DNA of 45,361 nucleotides from Bacillota bacterium (GTDB lineage Bacteria; Bacillota; Dethiobacteria; Dethiobacterales; Dethiobacteraceae): positions 1-45,361 of the forward strand of contig JAAYSO010000099.1 of NCBI GenBank assembly GCA_012523945.1. Direction: 5' to 3'. The position numbers were made by a program, and so were the translations under genes. Positions 2,658 through 42,741 of this stretch are shown piece after piece (the first letter of the stretch is position 1; the number at the start of each line of letters is the position of its first letter). The notes under the pieces are model-generated. The model searched no databases, was not told where the DNA came from, and saw only the letters and a list, made by a program, of their open reading frames with translations.

Positions 2658-5867
<3,210 letters not shown>

Positions 5868-26934: not shown

Positions 26935-27062
26935 TTTAGATGCACTTTTCCTCACAAATATTTTGGTTCCCACCTTTTTCCCAGGGTGTCAGGAGCTGAT
27001 GGCTATGGTAAAATAACTGTGTGAATGTGATGCTTTTAAATTACCAAACTGGAGGAATATGT

Positions 27063-27818
27063 ATGCACGAAATCTTGGTAAAAGGAAAAACGCTCCCGGA
27101 GGCATACCACAAATCCATCCTGGAGCTTCATACAAACGGCTTAATCACTGATTGTCCTGATTACCAGCAAAAACAAAAAGAATGTAGCATAACAATTTAT
27201 GTGAAGGAGCCTTTAGCGGAACCGATGATAAGTAAACTTTTCATCGGCGGGTTTGAAGAGTTGGAACAATACCGGCAGGAGATCCTTGACGGGATACTGG
27301 ACTTTTTAATCGGACATGGCTGGGATTATACCTATCATGATCGCATTGCCAGACAATTACCGTTTATTTACGACGAGTTACAAAGGAACCCTTACAGCCG
27401 CAGGGCAGTAATTGATGTCAGGGACTGGGAAGCCGATACTAAAGAAGGCAATACCTCTCCGGCCTGTTTACAGCATATCCAGTATTTTATTCGTGACCGG
27501 AAGTTACATTGCAAAGTCCTGATGCGCAGTAACGATGCGCCTGAAGCGGCTTTTATGAATATGTTTGCTTTTATTATGTTACAGGAAAGCGTGGCCGGTA
27601 AATTGGGCTACCAGGTAGGTTCCTATACTCACAGGGCAAATAGTTATCACTGCTATGAAAAAGATTTTCAGCTGCTGGAAAATTATGCGCGAAAAATTAC
27701 AACCCGTAGCCTTGAAGAACTTACATATGCTTATGAAGGCTATTTTAAGGAATTAATGGAAGAAGCAAAGCCAAAAATTGCCCAAAAAGTAGCGGCGCTT
27801 AAGGAAAAAAGAAAGTAA
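27063..27818 (+). CDS. Thymidylate synthase family protein, archaeal-like
   Basis: A 251-residue protein that I read as a ThyA-fold pyrimidine C5-transferase. Lined up with known enzymes it keeps the catalytic cysteine (Cys135 in SPACLQHIQ), the nucleotide-binding RSND (155-158), an Asn at the pyrimidine-sensing position (Asn166 in FMNMFAF), and a His and Tyr that bind the ribose (His196, Tyr198 in NSYHCYE). The dimer-interface Arg pair SRR is at 112-114. The N-terminus KGKTLPEAYHKSI resembles the methanogen-type enzymes more than E. coli ThyA. Substrate could be dUMP, or dCMP or another pyrimidine. The ATG follows GGAGG by seven bases. It converges on the macrodomain gene, with only five bases between the stops. 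Confidence 0.75.
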   Translation: MHEILVKGKTLPEAYHKSILELHTNGLITDCPDYQQKQKECSITIYVKEPLAEPMISKLFIGGFEELEQYRQEILDGILDFLIGHGWDYTYHDRIARQLPFIYDELQRNPYSRRAVIDVRDWEADTKEGNTSPACLQHIQYFIRDRKLHCKVLMRSNDAPEAAFMNMFAFIMLQESVAGKLGYQVGSYTHRANSYHCYEKDFQLLENYARKITTRSLEELTYAYEGYFKELMEEAKPKIAQKVAALKEKRK

Positions 27819-27823
27819 AACGT

Positions 27824-28603
27824 TTATACCAGCAAACTGCGATAGATTGTTTCATCTGCATCAGTAAAAACATTGAAAACAACACGCTTAACGATAGTGT
27901 CCCGGTCAAGAAACTTTTTCACGCGGCTGACGGCAATTTCAGCCGCTTTATCTTTGGGGAAGCGGAAAACTCCTGTGGAGATACAACAAAAGGCAATGCT
28001 TTGACAACCGTTGGCAGCTGCCAGTTGCAGGCAACTGTCATAACATGAGGCCAGCAAATCACAGTCTTGCTGTGTCAGCGCATGGTCGATAATCGGTCCA
28101 ACCGTATGAAGTATATATTTGGCCGGCAAATTAAAGGCAGGTGTAATCTTGGCCTGACCGGTGGGTTCTTCGTGGCCCTGTTTTACCATCAGCTCGTGGC
28201 AGTACAACCTTAACTGAATGCCGCTATAAGTGTGAATGCAATTATCAATACAATCATGGCACGGCAGCCAGCAACCTTCCATTTGACTGTTGGCAGCATT
28301 AACAATGGCATCAATTTTAAGTGTGGTAATATCGCCTTTCCAAATCACCAGACGGGGATCGGCTGCTGTTGCCGGCAGCAGGTTGGCATCAACTATTCCC
28401 CGCTCCTTGATCAGCTCCTGCAGATACTCATCCTGAATTTTCAGGAATTCATCACTAATGGGCATGCTGGGGCGAACATTCATTAAAGAACGCAACAACC
28501 GCCACTGCTGCTCCTGGTCTGCAGGCACTTCTATATTTTCATAACGCGGATTTTCTTTAAGCAGTTCCCGGATTAAATAAAGTCTTCTTTCAGCTTGTGT
28601 CAT
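27824..28603 (-). CDS. Zinc-type macrodomain, protein ADP-ribosyl hydrolase
   Basis: A 259-residue protein of the class that accompanies class M sirtuins and removes ADP-ribose from modified protein side chains. An N-terminal helical part of about 80 residues precedes the macrodomain. Within the domain are VIWKGDIT, IVNAANSQMEGC (100-111), the zinc cluster region PCHDCIDNCIH (114-124), HTVGP (166-170) and the loop STGVFRFP (209-216). The zinc-binding His/Cys group distinguishes these Zn-macros from ordinary macrodomains. The ATG at 28603 is chosen because AAGGA lies nine bases before it; the frame extends upstream within the sirtuin gene. It starts two bases after the sirtuin stop, so they are coupled. 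Function is known from family work, target here unknown. Confidence 0.88.
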   Translation of the reverse strand: MTQAERRLYLIRELLKENPRYENIEVPADQEQQWRLLRSLMNVRPSMPISDEFLKIQDEYLQELIKERGIVDANLLPATAADPRLVIWKGDITTLKIDAIVNAANSQMEGCWLPCHDCIDNCIHTYSGIQLRLYCHELMVKQGHEEPTGQAKITPAFNLPAKYILHTVGPIIDHALTQQDCDLLASCYDSCLQLAAANGCQSIAFCCISTGVFRFPKDKAAEIAVSRVKKFLDRDTIVKRVVFNVFTDADETIYRSLLV

Positions 28604-28604
28604 T

Positions 28605-29519
28605 TTATTCATCCTTGTCCGTAAAATATTTTCTTTGATAAAGACTTTCAATGACAGCGGCCGCATCATACGGCATCTCTGTTGCTTTCCCCTTTAATTC
28701 CCGGGGCACCATGGGATAACCACCATGTCCCGGCCATTCTTTATATTCTTTGTTCACCCGGAACAAATGAGCATGATTATGATAATACGCCAGACGCTCA
28801 AAGGGCCAACGTATTACCACCGGCGTATTAAAGCCCACTCCCAATTCAAGAATGCATAATTTTTTGCCCACTGTGCTTTCGACAAAATCCACATAACGTT
28901 GCCTCTCCTCTTTATAGCCTTCAAAGGCCCGGAATGCTGTGGCAAGGGGTGCGCCACAGTAAGGACAGTAGGGAATGGCACTTTCATCAGCAATCATAAA
29001 AGTTTCCGAATCAATTAAAGGCAGTAATTTGTCCAGGTACGGTTTAATTTCCCAGGTCTCTCTGGTACAACGCCCCGTGCAGCGCAGCCTGTCGTAGCTG
29101 CCTTGAGCTTCAAAAACCCGCTCCATGGGAAAACCTGTCCGCATAAATTGCCGGTCACAGTTGGAGGTGATAACAAAAAAATCTTTATCCTCCACCAGTT
29201 TCCGCAGTTTTTTGTAAAGCTCCGCCGGCGGGAAAACATAACGCACAAAATGGATGTGCCTGACATTGTACGCCCATTCCCTGGCTTGAGGCCAGGGTTC
29301 ATGCTGAAAAAGTTCATAAGGGTACCGGTATCCCCAGGCAGCCATCTCCGGCTGAAACTGTTTAAACAATTCTTCATCTAAATAACTAAGCCCGGCGGCA
29401 GCCGATAAACCGGCACCTGCACCGATTAAAATTTTATCCGCCGTCTTCAACCACTCTGCCAAGTTCTCAATGGCTTCTCTGAATTCTTTATTGTCCTCAA
29501 ATTCATGCGTGTTTTTCAT
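28605..29519 (-). CDS. Class M sirtuin (SirTM), protein ADP-ribosyltransferase, copy 1
   Basis: A 304-residue NAD-dependent enzyme with the Rossmann GAGAGLS at 33-39, TSNCD at 118-122 (Asn120), and AQG at 138-140 where classical deacetylase sirtuins have HG: the catalytic His is replaced by Gln139, the mark of class M. A zinc ribbon is formed by Cys147, Cys151, Cys185 and Cys188. GVGFNTP at 227-233 completes the nucleotide site. In characterised Firmicutes operons SirTM modifies a lipoylated GcvH-like protein, and the linked macrodomain reverses it. Here the GcvH-like and LplA2 genes are not adjacent. The ATG at 29519 follows GGAGG. The operon order is yjjG-like, SirTM, macrodomain. Confidence 0.9.
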   Translation of the reverse strand: MKNTHEFEDNKEFREAIENLAEWLKTADKILIGAGAGLSAAAGLSYLDEELFKQFQPEMAAWGYRYPYELFQHEPWPQAREWAYNVRHIHFVRYVFPPAELYKKLRKLVEDKDFFVITSNCDRQFMRTGFPMERVFEAQGSYDRLRCTGRCTRETWEIKPYLDKLLPLIDSETFMIADESAIPYCPYCGAPLATAFRAFEGYKEERQRYVDFVESTVGKKLCILELGVGFNTPVVIRWPFERLAYYHNHAHLFRVNKEYKEWPGHGGYPMVPRELKGKATEMPYDAAAVIESLYQRKYFTDKDE

Positions 29520-29590
29520 CTGCTCCTCCGTTGACAAAATTTACACTTTTATTAATTTGTTTGTTACTGCAGGTACGGTTCTGCCGGCAG

Positions 29591-30271
29591 TTACAACAGA
29601 TCCACCAGCTCCCTGAGATGCCGGATTTCATATGTTGGCTGCAGACCGCTTTGCTTGCTTTGCCCCTGCGGATTATACCAGCAGGTATCAATACCGAAAT
29701 TATACCCGCCTTGAATGTCTGAAGAAAGTGAATCCCCCACCATTAATGTTTTTTCTTTGCCGGTATAAGCAATTTTATTAAAGGTATAGGCAAAAATCTT
29801 TTTATTTGGCTTACTGCAGCCTGCTTCCTCCGAGGTCACCATCGCAAAAATATAATTTTTTAAAGGCGATTTTTGCAACCTCTTTTGCTGTACCGTCGTA
29901 ATACCATTGGTAACGATTACTAACCGGCATTTTTCCGCCAGATACCGGCAGACTTCTTCTGCACCATCTAAAATAAAGCCTGCTTCGCCTAAAAAATCTA
30001 AATAGACATCACTAAAATAATCGAGATCAAGCTTTAAGTTTCTGCCGGCAAAAAGTTGCTCAAACCTGACGGTACGCAGGCTTAAATTATCAATTTTACC
30101 CTGTTCATAATCCAACCAAATTTGGTTATTAATTTGACGATATTTATCCAGTTCTGCTGCCTGATAAGGGATTTTGAAAAATTTATATGTTTCCTCCAAA
30201 GCATATGCTTCAGCTTTCGTATAATCAAATAAAGTTCCGTCGGCATCAAGCAGAATTAACTCATACTTCAC
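29591..30271 (-). CDS. yjjG: YjjG-like HAD pyrimidine nucleotidase
   Basis: A 226-residue HAD phosphatase that in relatives dephosphorylates non-canonical pyrimidine nucleotides as a housecleaning step. Motif I DADGTLF (Asp9, Asp11), motif II VIVTNG, the lysine in SKPNKKIF, and motif IV GDSLSSD are intact. Length and the order of helical cap residues follow YjjG closely, including the segment YRQINNQIWLDYEQGKI. The start is GTG, seven bases after AGGAGG. It is the first gene of the operon with SirTM and the macrodomain, 71 bases ahead of SirTM, behind an extended -10 promoter at 30325-30330. Confidence 0.85.
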   Translation of the reverse strand: MKYELILLDADGTLFDYTKAEAYALEETYKFFKIPYQAAELDKYRQINNQIWLDYEQGKIDNLSLRTVRFEQLFAGRNLKLDLDYFSDVYLDFLGEAGFILDGAEEVCRYLAEKCRLVIVTNGITTVQQKRLQKSPLKNYIFAMVTSEEAGCSKPNKKIFAYTFNKIAYTGKEKTLMVGDSLSSDIQGGYNFGIDTCWYNPQGQSKQSGLQPTYEIRHLRELVDLL

Positions 30272-30309
30272 TGTTTACCTCCTGAGTTGAATCTAGTACA
30301 CTAAAAACA

Positions 30310-30330
30310 GTCTGTTTCAGACACATTATA
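30310..30330 (-). promoter_or_regulatory. Extended -10 promoter and overlapping palindrome of the yjjG-SirTM-macro operon
   Basis: On the minus strand TGGTATAAT ends at 30325 and forms an extended -10 box. A perfect 5-bp inverted repeat, GTCTG-TTT-CAGAC (30310-30322), covers the expected transcription start, where a repressor could block initiation. The operator role is inference. Confidence 0.55.
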
Positions 30331-34225: not shown

Positions 34226-34750
34226 TTAATCTTCCTGGCTCACCAGAATTCCGGCTTCGCGTAAAGCAGACGTTATTTCTTTCATCACTTCAGAATTGGG
34301 AGCTTCTATGGTATGCAGATGTACACCGTCTGTAAGGATGGCTAAAGGTTGTGCCTGTTTATCTGCCAGCTGGGAAATAAAAATATTTATGTCCCGCCGG
34401 CTGGCAATCATCAAATTACCGCGTATTTCTCCATAGAGAGGATGCTCGACTATTACATCAAGTACTTTGCCGCCCAAATCCACCACAATACCCAGTTCAT
34501 CCACAATTTGTTCCCGGTTATGGCAGCAAGCTATGACCATACTGACATGTTCACTTTTTTCTGTTTTCGGCAGCATATAACCTTGCGGCGTAGCTATAAT
34601 CTCCTGGCCGGCAGCCCGCAGAATCGCAATATCCTGGACAATCACCTGCCTGCTTACACCAAACCGATTTGCTATTTCGGCTCCGGTAACAGGTTTGTTT
34701 TTTTTCTTCAGTAACTGTAATATTTTTCCACGTCGCTCCACGGCTTCCAT
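34226..34750 (-). CDS. niaR: NiaR-like nicotinate-responsive transcriptional repressor
   Basis: A 174-residue repressor: an N-terminal winged helix (VTGAEIANRFGVSRQVIVQDI) followed by a 3H domain, named for three histidines and seen here in ACCHNREQIV, VEHPLYGEIRG and TDGVHLHT. In Firmicutes NiaR senses nicotinic acid and represses niacin uptake and NAD synthesis genes. The ATG at 34750 follows GAGGTG by five bases. It is the last gene of a probable four-gene operon after a DUF89 protein, a TIM-barrel protein and a flavin oxidoreductase, with a 44-base gap to the latter. No niacin transporter or nad gene is near, and I did not find a convincing operator. Confidence 0.87.
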   Translation of the reverse strand: MEAVERRGKILQLLKKKNKPVTGAEIANRFGVSRQVIVQDIAILRAAGQEIIATPQGYMLPKTEKSEHVSMVIACCHNREQIVDELGIVVDLGGKVLDVIVEHPLYGEIRGNLMIASRRDINIFISQLADKQAQPLAILTDGVHLHTIEAPNSEVMKEITSALREAGILVSQED

Positions 34751-34794
34751 AGCTTCACCTCGCTTCACTTCGCCTTTCTGGTGCCTGCACTTTC

Positions 34795-36729
34795 TTATCT
34801 CCCCAGATTATTTGCTAAAGTATTAGCTGCTTGTGTAGCAGCAAGTATATTTTTTGGCGTCAGGCAATCGCCGATCTGATAAAATTCAGGTGCGCATTGG
34901 GCCAGTGCTAAAGCCTCTTCACGCAGGGGTTGTTGTCCCACCGCATAAATTACTGTTTCGGCGGGAAGCTCCAGCTTGCCGGCAGGACTGTCTGCCAAAA
35001 CAGCTGTCCCGGTAATTTCCCTGGCAGATGTTGAAGTATAAATTTTAATACCAAGCTTTTTAATTTGATCCCTCAATGCCAATGTATGCAGGCTAAATTT
35101 ATCAATAGATAATTCAGGCAGCTTCTCAATAATTGTTACGGACCGTCCTTCCTGCGCCAGGTAGATGCCCAGCTCCACACCAACCAGTCCGCCGCCTAAA
35201 ATCACAGCAGTTTTGCCGGTTTTTTCAGGTTGTAGAAAGATATCCTCCGCTCCCAAAACATGAGGCAGGTTAATACCTTTGATTTGCGGTACTACAGGAC
35301 GGGCCCCAAGGGCTGCAATAATCACATCCGGTTTAATTGTTTTTGCCAACTGCGGCGTAACTTCAGTCTGCAGCCGCACCTCCACCCCTGCTTTTTCCAG
35401 GAGATGTGCCTGCAAATCAAGGTACGTCTTAATCTTTGCTTTAAAGGGCACTTTTTCTTCACAGCGCAAAACTCCACCCAATTTATCGCTTTTCTCACAT
35501 AAAATCACCCGGTGACCTCTTTCCGCTGCAGTCAGGGCCGCCTGCATACCGGCCACTCCTCCACCTACCACAAGTACTTGTTTTTTATTTCTGACAGGAG
35601 GCAGATAGCGTGATTCTTTTTCATAACCAATAACAGGGTTAATGGAACAATAGAAAATACGGTGTTTGCCCACACTGCCAAAGCATTCAGAACAGCGTAA
35701 GCATTTTCTAATTTCATCATCCCGGCCACTGCGTGCTTTAAGGGGCAGGTCGGGATCGGCCAGCGTCTGCCGGGCCATGGCAATAAGGTCGGCCTGACCG
35801 GAAGCAATGATTTCTTCCATATGCGCCGGATCAGTATATGCACCAACAGTTGCCACATAAGATTTAACATGTTTTTTAATGGCAGCAGCATATTGCAAAT
35901 TGACGCCATCCGGAAGGAACAGGCTGGGATGGGTAATAATGGCTGCTGATTCCACCTCGTGGTGACCGGCGGAAACATGGATAATATCTACTTTACCGTC
36001 AATGGCTTTGGCAAATTTAATGCCTTCTTCAAGATCATACCCGTCAGGATTAGTCTCGGAACCGCTCAGGCGAAATTCAATGGGAAAGTTTTTGCCCACA
36101 GCCTTGCGCACACTGTCAATAACTGCGAGGGGAAAGCGCATACGGTTTTCAAAACTTCCACCCCACTTGTCTTTGCGCGTATTAACCTGTGGTGAAAAAA
36201 ACTGTGAAATTAGCCAGCCGTGGCCACCATGAATTGTCACCATGCCAAAGCCGCATTGTTTGGCAAAAGCTGCTGCCCGGCCAAAGGCTGCTACGGTCTG
36301 CTCAATCATTTCTTCCGGCATTTCCTTAACTTCACCGTACCGGTTAACCGTGGCCACGGGACCGTAGAGCTCTGCCCCGGCCACATGAGAAGCTTGCGCG
36401 TACATGCCGGCATGCGACAATTCAGCCGAAGCTACTGCGCCATGGCGCGAAATGGCATTGGCTACTTTTGAAAGTCCGGGCAGCATCTTGGGATTATCCA
36501 TGGGCAACAACCAGTCATAATGCCGTCCGTTTTTCCAGTCCACAATACAATCGCCGATACAAACGGAGGCAAAACCGCCCCGGGCTTTAATTTCAAAATA
36601 AGCTGCCATATCATCATTGGGAAATAAATCAGGCCCGATATTATAGTAACCTTGCGGCGACGACAACAATCTGTTTCTAAATAAGGTTCCGGCAATCTCC
36701 AGCGGAGTGAAAAGATGTGGGTATTTCAT
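34795..36729 (-). CDS. Fe-S flavin oxidoreductase of the 2,4-dienoyl-CoA reductase / BaiCD family
   Basis: A 644-residue multidomain enzyme: an N-terminal FMN-binding TIM barrel (Old Yellow Enzyme type, to about residue 330), a 4Fe-4S cluster with CLRCSEC and a further Cys in FYCSINP (near residue 345), then FAD (GGGVAGMQAALTAAERG) and NAD(P)H (GGGLVGVELGIYLAQEG) Rossmann domains. Members reduce activated double bonds of enoyl-CoA, enoates or steroid-like substrates in anaerobes. The ATG follows AAAGGGG. It lies 32 bases after the TIM-barrel gene and 44 bases before niaR. The fold is firm; substrate is unknown and the CoA-dependence cannot be seen. Confidence 0.9.
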   Translation of the reverse strand: MKYPHLFTPLEIAGTLFRNRLLSSPQGYYNIGPDLFPNDDMAAYFEIKARGGFASVCIGDCIVDWKNGRHYDWLLPMDNPKMLPGLSKVANAISRHGAVASAELSHAGMYAQASHVAGAELYGPVATVNRYGEVKEMPEEMIEQTVAAFGRAAAFAKQCGFGMVTIHGGHGWLISQFFSPQVNTRKDKWGGSFENRMRFPLAVIDSVRKAVGKNFPIEFRLSGSETNPDGYDLEEGIKFAKAIDGKVDIIHVSAGHHEVESAAIITHPSLFLPDGVNLQYAAAIKKHVKSYVATVGAYTDPAHMEEIIASGQADLIAMARQTLADPDLPLKARSGRDDEIRKCLRCSECFGSVGKHRIFYCSINPVIGYEKESRYLPPVRNKKQVLVVGGGVAGMQAALTAAERGHRVILCEKSDKLGGVLRCEEKVPFKAKIKTYLDLQAHLLEKAGVEVRLQTEVTPQLAKTIKPDVIIAALGARPVVPQIKGINLPHVLGAEDIFLQPEKTGKTAVILGGGLVGVELGIYLAQEGRSVTIIEKLPELSIDKFSLHTLALRDQIKKLGIKIYTSTSAREITGTAVLADSPAGKLELPAETVIYAVGQQPLREEALALAQCAPEFYQIGDCLTPKNILAATQAANTLANNLGR

Positions 36730-41793: not shown

Positions 41794-42711
41794 CTAATTA
41801 TTGTTATTTTCAGGCAAATTATCTGCCAGCCATTCAATTACATCTTTTGCATCATAAGGCATTGGCGTTGCTTTATCTTTAAGTTCTTTTGGCACCATAG
41901 GGTAACCACCATGACCCGGCACTTCTTTATATTCATAATTGACACGGAATAAGTGGGCATGATTGTGGTAATAAGCTAAACGTTCAAAAGGCCAACGGAT
42001 GACAACGGGAGTATTAAAACCGACCCCTATTTCCAAAATGCACAGTTTTTTGCCGATGGTGCTTTCAACCCAATCCAGATAACGGTTTTGTTCTTCTTCA
42101 TATTCTTCATAATCGCGAACTGCGGCAAAAAGCGGCCCCCCGCAATAGGGACAGGCGGGGATGGCACTCTCATCTGAAATCATAAAAGTTTCCGTATCAA
42201 TTAAGGGAAGCAGTTTATCGATAAAAGGCTTGATATGCCACGTTTCTTTCGTACAACCTTTAATGCATTTCAACCTGTCATAGCTACCCTGCGCCTCAAA
42301 AACACGCGTCATGGGAAAACCGGTCCGTAAAAACTGGCGGTCACAGTTAGAAGTGATGACAAAAAAGTCTTTATCTTTGACAACTCGCAGTAGCTTTTTA
42401 TAAAGTTCCGAGGGAGGAAATTCATAACGTACAAAATTAATATGCCTAATATTATAAGCCCATTCCCGGGCCGGTGGCCAGTTTTCTTTAAAGCGCTCAA
42501 AAAGCTCATATGGGTAGCGATAGCCCCTGGCGGCCATTTCCGGTTGAAATTGTTTAAAAAGCTCCTCATCTAAATAGCTTAATCCTGCTGCAGCCGATAA
42601 GCCGGCACCGGCACCAATAAGGATTTTGTCTGCGGATTCCAGCCATTTTTTTAATTTTTGCATAGAACGGATGAAAGCACTGTCGGGCTGACCGTTTTGC
42701 ATTCCTTTCAC
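41794..42711 (-). CDS. Class M sirtuin (SirTM), copy 2, without a macrodomain neighbour
   Basis: A 305-residue paralogue of the sirtuin at 28.6-29.5 kb. The same features are intact: GAGAGLS at 33-39, TSNCD with Asn122, QG in place of HG (Gln141), zinc cysteines 149, 153, 187, 190, and GVGFNTP. By eye roughly three quarters of aligned residues are identical to copy 1 over the whole catalytic core. The two differ mostly at the N-terminus, in a short stretch around residues 72-80 and at the C-terminus. No eraser or target gene adjoins it. The start codon is GTG at 42711 behind GAGGG, five bases away. It has its own extended -10 promoter and terminator. The target is unknown. Confidence 0.88.
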   Translation of the reverse strand: MKGMQNGQPDSAFIRSMQKLKKWLESADKILIGAGAGLSAAAGLSYLDEELFKQFQPEMAARGYRYPYELFERFKENWPPAREWAYNIRHINFVRYEFPPSELYKKLLRVVKDKDFFVITSNCDRQFLRTGFPMTRVFEAQGSYDRLKCIKGCTKETWHIKPFIDKLLPLIDTETFMISDESAIPACPYCGGPLFAAVRDYEEYEEEQNRYLDWVESTIGKKLCILEIGVGFNTPVVIRWPFERLAYYHNHAHLFRVNYEYKEVPGHGGYPMVPKELKDKATPMPYDAKDVIEWLADNLPENNNN

Positions 42712-42741
42712 CACATCCCTCTCTAAAATTTATTCCCATCA

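Follow-up and report, generated by a model that had tools for sequence, protein, structure and literature searches.

A minimal-type SirTM/zinc macrodomain operon and an orphan second SirTM in a Dethiobacteraceae genome without detected lipoylation genes

A class M sirtuin (SirTM) gene followed by a zinc macrodomain (Zn-Macro) gene and preceded by a nucleotidase gene raises the question of what such a pair modifies, and whether the nucleotidase takes part. To our knowledge, the only protein known to be SirTM-modified is the GcvH-like lipoyl carrier GcvH-L. The locus examined here lies on a contig of a Bacillota bacterium of the family Dethiobacteraceae, of which a stretch of 45,361 nucleotides was analysed (hereafter the window). 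On the minus strand, three co-directional and closely spaced genes encode, in order, a YjjG/YfnB-family HAD 5'-nucleotidase (30271-29591), SirTM copy 1 (29519-28605, 304 aa) and the zinc macrodomain (28603-27824, 259 aa). A thymidylate-synthase-like gene on the plus strand (27021-27818) is convergent with the zinc macrodomain gene; its product is divergent, of methanogen type and below cutoff, and the gene is kept in the sister genome of the same genus (G012; the window's own genome is G000).

SirTM copy 1 was assigned to the class M sirtuins, mono-ADP-ribosyltransferases by family. It matched the structure of Fusarium Mfs1 (8RSN, E 2e-35) better than that of Streptococcus pyogenes SirTM (SpySirTM; 5A3A, E 6e-29) and barely scored against general SIR2 models, as expected of class M. 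The gene probably starts with the ATG at 29519, which is preceded by GGAGGAG; a TTG at 29537 was disfavoured. Deacylase sirtuins carry a catalytic HG motif where SirTM has QG, and in copy 1 HG is likewise replaced by QG (Gln145-Gly146 in P0001 numbering, aligned to SpySirTM Gln137). An Asn occupies the position of SpySirTM Asn118 (Asn126 in P0001 numbering, Asn120 from the true start), and the four structural Cys are present as C153, C157, C191 and C194 (P0001 numbering). Comparison with the sister genome gave a dN/dS of ~0.06, indicating strong purifying selection.

The zinc macrodomain exceeded the cutoff of the protein-ADP-ribose hydrolase family NF003163 (366 versus 272 bits) and was closest to SauMacro (5KIV, E 2e-75), with 5KIV, 8RSL and 8RSI all matching at E about 1e-75. 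The hallmark of Zn-Macro proteins is a zinc-binding Cys/His/Cys insertion that replaces the glycine-rich loop of MacroD. The zinc-site Cys/His/Cys and the active-site Asn are conserved here (N104, C113, H118 and C120 in SauMacro numbering), as is the TGVF loop, present as CISTGVFRFP. The macrodomain gene is directly linked to SirTM copy 1, its start at 28603 abutting the end of the SirTM gene and an alternative start at 28612 overlapping it. The macrodomain, too, is under strong purifying selection (dN/dS ~0.06 within the genus). One zinc-type macrodomain was found in the genome, and a different contig encodes a further, untyped macrodomain (176 aa). The original prediction, made from the sequence of the window, had described the signature residues as intact, and the Asn, the Gln, the four Cys and the CISTGVFRFP loop were all confirmed; its expectation of activity is also upheld, in that the motifs suggest a pair that is intact and probably active.

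A second SirTM gene (copy 2; 41794-42714, minus strand), overlooked in that prediction, lies 12 kb from copy 1 and encodes a protein ~75% identical to it. Neither a macrodomain nor a YjjG gene adjoins copy 2, which is divergent from an aldehyde dehydrogenase gene and has a TATAAT-like promoter element upstream. The sister genome carries the gene in the corresponding position, and a close relative is present in another genome of the family (G001). The motifs of copy 2 are intact, including QG, and a dN/dS of ~0.06 between the genus genomes again indicates strong purifying selection. A number of further SirTM genes stand alone, with no zinc macrodomain nearby (L089, L090, L091, L103, L104 and L114); the genomes G384, G304 and G222 encode a macrodomain at a site away from SirTM. 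In G001, a PapB-like radical SAM/SPASM peptide maturase, scoring below its family cutoff, is encoded directly upstream of the copy-2-type SirTM (L002 2994-4136). The window also encodes an HTH and 3H-domain protein, probably a NiaR-type niacin/NAD regulator (34226-34768, minus strand), a few kb from the two NAD-consuming SirTMs, which may be a coincidence.

To place these proteins within the SirTM family, a maximum-likelihood tree was examined. The window SirTMs fell into a clade that a long branch separates from the common Clostridial group, in a tree where some long branches meet (a warning raised by the tool) and the placement of outliers is uncertain. Sister lineages of this clade (G384 and G304) carry lone SirTMs. 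Identity to SpySirTM was 40-46% for most of the common Clostridial group and 23-30% for the window clade, the members of which were mostly 33-37% identical to Mfs1. Three residues after QG the window clade has Asp (QGSYD), where most SirTMs have Gly. Gene order within the clade is SirTM first and macrodomain second; most Clostridial loci, like the extended operon, show the opposite order. A SirTM-first order unique to the window clade was rejected, since a similar order was found in L094, L097 and L100 and apparently also on a Treponema plasmid.

The depth of this divergence, with copy 1 only 27% identical to SpySirTM, and the Asp of QGSYD would both fit a clade that has drifted to another NAD-dependent activity (e.g. 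NADase or deacylase), its macrodomain processing ADP-ribose products that are not protein-linked. We consider such a drift improbable: like the ADP-ribosylating SirTMs, the clade has kept QG and the catalytic Asn and so lacks the His of deacylases, and the zinc macrodomain is tightly co-conserved with SirTM. The preferred reading, reversible ADP-ribosylation of a protein, draws its predicted activity from sequence, and at such a distance from SpySirTM the reaction could differ, for instance as NAD hydrolysis or in the use of a different acceptor.

The nucleotidase was next considered as a possible component. By score, the HAD protein is a bona fide member of the YjjG/YfnB nucleotidases, passing the TIGR02254 YjjG_YfnB equivalog cutoff (231.4 versus 159.9 bits) and with YfnB (3ED5/3I76) as its nearest solved structures, in agreement with the original prediction that a YjjG-like nucleotidase precedes the pair on the same strand. 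YjjG and SirTM are 71 bp apart in the window (35 bp in the sister genome), and no terminator-like site was predicted within this gap, making co-transcription plausible. Linkage of this nucleotidase family to SirTM was not previously known. In the SirTM locus survey YjjG was found upstream of SirTM only in G000 and G012, the two of two genomes of one genus, and in none of the other sampled lineages. Elsewhere in the window SirTM clade the upstream genes encode MtaA/URO-D-like proteins, a catalase, an AlkD-like DNA repair protein and glycoside hydrolases.

YjjG could be the SirTM target, or it could recycle nucleotide products of the cycle, which would make this a pyrimidine-linked SirTM system. 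The co-directional arrangement with its short gap, the retention of YjjG in both genomes of the genus and the convergent thymidylate-synthase-like gene next door are consistent with such a role. It is nonetheless quite unlikely: the gene is missing from the SirTM neighbourhood of every other sampled lineage, the over-cutoff YjjG-family genes of G001 and G482 lie on other contigs than the SirTM genes detected in these genomes, the rate of evolution of YjjG within the genus exceeds that of the pair (dN/dS 0.09 versus 0.06), and copy 2 has no YjjG. Because YjjG was found linked to SirTM in one genus only, a functional partnership was dropped as the main reading, and the gene is most likely a bystander, a genus-specific neighbour outside the mechanism. 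The original prediction had cast YjjG as a meaningful operon leader and had named a neighbourhood limited to this strain as evidence against it; a linkage restricted to one genus and two genomes comes close to that case.

Among the other upstream genes, MtaA/URO-D-like genes stand upstream of SirTM in L086 (6257-7336) and L008 (4829-5842) and nearby in L006 (2469-3602). These genes, in three relatives of the window clade, are possibly of the cobalamin methyltransferase type. The protein was set aside as a recurrent clade partner, given its weak sub-family scores and its absence beside the window pair. In L006 a gap of 64 bp separates the end of a long-form catalase gene (3727-5844) from the SirTM reading frame that follows, a position in line with an oxidative-stress role.

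The genome was also examined for a lipoylated target. Neither GcvH-L nor LplA2 is encoded in the window, as originally noted, and this result now extends to the whole draft assembly, where the proposed check for a GcvH-L/LplA2 pair elsewhere in the genome was negative. A whole-assembly family search found no GcvH (PF01597). Both Biotin_lipoyl (PF00364) proteins of the genome carry the biotin motif EAMKM, and the only BPL/LplA/LipB-family (PF03099) protein is BirA, encoded adjoining a type III pantothenate kinase-like gene. Four genomes of the family were compared (G000, G012, G001 and G002). The LplA/LipB catalytic domain PF21948 was found in none of them, and PF01597 passed its cutoff in none; G000, G012 and G001 had no PF01597 match at all, while G002 had a single weak match below cutoff. 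In a positive control, the same models detected the GcvH-L (5e-18 on PF01597) and the LplA2 (3e-50 on PF21948) of the Aerococcus tenax extended operon, so such genes would have shown up here, and a lipoyl system elsewhere in the genome was rejected after searches with PF01597, PF00364, PF03099 and PF21948. The absence is to be read against an assembly that is a draft (154 contigs, 2.08 Mb, 96.7% complete), yet the four genomes agree. Across the Sporobacter order, a lipoate ligase above cutoff is missing from 63 of the 80 genomes that carry SirTM, and of the clear GcvH genes found among 23 SirTM genomes examined, none is close to SirTM. In Sporobacter termitidis G479 and in G482, relatives in the window clade, a lipoate ligase is present and GcvH was not found.

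The macrodomain itself is informative on this point. Arg175-Arg176 of SauMacro were placed at the GcvH-L interface in a modelled complex (Ariza et al. 2024, PMC11490716). In our sequence alignment these positions are Asp-His in the window macrodomain, and none of the non-extended Zn-Macros surveyed retains the two arginines together. A lipoylated target overlooked because the assembly has gaps or its carrier and ligase went unrecognised, with the pair working as in Staphylococcus and Streptococcus, would be compatible with an incomplete draft and with the lipoate ligases of the two clade relatives (Sporobacter and G482), but is highly improbable given four family genomes without an over-cutoff carrier or ligase, models that detect genuine GcvH-L and LplA2, and the lost GcvH-L contact residues. 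Since neither a lipoyl carrier nor a lipoate ligase was found in the genome, a lipoylated carrier is very unlikely to be the target in the window's lineage. The earlier suggestion of a different target thus remains the natural reading of a genome in which no GcvH-L/LplA2 was found, whereas nothing found points to two of the classes it had put forward, a nucleic acid or a nucleotide enzyme.

Comparison with known systems defines what kind of operon this is. Rack et al. (2015, PMC4518038) distinguish two arrangements of bacterial SirTM/macrodomain pairs, independent operons and extended operons, and count the GcvH-L/LplA2 operon as one form of the latter. A minimal-operon Zn-Macro was shown to be unable to demodify GcvH-L, and SirTM targets outside the extended operon are not known (Ariza et al. 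2024, PMC11490716). The original prediction had taken the described systems to be those paired with GcvH-L/LplA2; as both studies already describe operons lacking these two genes, the window pair, adjacent and with neither GcvH-L nor LplA2, is a further case of the minimal SirTM/Zn-Macro operon. It is alike in this respect to the minimal operons reported previously, such as that of Methanobrevibacter oralis (MorMacro, 8RSI-8RSK; PMC11490716) and those described as independent (PMC4518038), and differs from them in having the SirTM gene first, an orphan second SirTM, a genus-specific YjjG upstream and a genome without detected lipoylation genes. Of these, the genome without detectable lipoylation genes and the orphan second SirTM, together with the deep SirTM-first clade, are the additions made here.

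The extended operon of Lactobacillales and Staphylococcaceae comprises GcvH-L, Zn-Macro, SirTM and LplA2, with an OYE and an LLM. The same two enzyme families are present in the window, where the macrodomain is 49% identical to SauMacro. In contrast, the window pair lacks GcvH-L, LplA2 and LLM, has the reverse gene order, a SirTM distant from SpySirTM and no GcvH-L contact arginines. An OYE-type FMN oxidoreductase with a C-terminal pyridine-nucleotide reductase domain is encoded in the window (34795-36729, minus strand), 4.5 kb from YjjG and outside the operon. It sits in another gene group, and its interpretation as a remnant of an extended operon is unsupported; a 37% identical OYE is encoded near the L007 pair, and two cases prove nothing. 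The fungal Mfs1 fusion (Foc1Mfs1, 8RSN) is the closest solved SirTM by sequence (36% identity to the window SirTM) and likewise pairs SirTM with a macrodomain with no lipoyl partner encoded with it, although in Mfs1 the two are fused into one chain that begins with the macrodomain, while the window has two genes with SirTM first.

Taken together, the locus probably encodes a minimal-type, lipoylation-independent switch of reversible mono-ADP-ribosylation with two writers and one zinc-dependent eraser. SirTM would use NAD+ to attach ADP-ribose to a side chain of one of the cell's own proteins, and the zinc macrodomain, the product of the next gene downstream, would hydrolyse it off again, rendering the modification reversible. 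The separately transcribed copy 2 probably feeds the same eraser, as a single zinc-type macrodomain was found in the genome; this sharing of one eraser by two writers is deduced from genome content.

Candidate partners for such a switch are suggested by the common Clostridial SirTM group, in which an HxlR regulator was close by in 15 of 31 loci and a PNPOx/4Fe-4S flavoprotein in 13 of 31. A subset carries a full cassette consisting of HxlR, an ACGX-repeat peptide, an ACGX radical SAM/SPASM protein (TIGR04340), a nitroreductase, the PNPOx/4Fe-4S protein, Zn-Macro and SirTM. Cassette loci include L093, L095, L096, L106, L111, L115 and L125 (e.g. L096 9421-12489 and L125 901-5651). The cassette is also found on a Roseburia plasmid, where the NCBI annotation reads acgA/acgM; among the papers searched, none named ACGX together with radical SAM. 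The composition of the cassette suggests a redox role, with Cys-rich proteins as possible targets. It thereby names concrete candidate partners of SirTM/Zn-Macro and points to redox or electrophile stress.

The strong selection on SirTM and the zinc macrodomain in genomes without the lipoylation genes that were searched for suggests that lipoylation is not a general requirement of these enzymes. Whether the deep SirTM-first branch as a whole works without any protein lipoylation, with two writers, one zinc-dependent eraser and a non-lipoyl protein target, is in our estimate evenly balanced. If so, lipoyl dependence would have arisen late, as a specialisation of the operon found in staphylococci and streptococci, and would not be the core function of the class. 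Genomes without detected lipoylation genes offer a clean background in which to find the real target.
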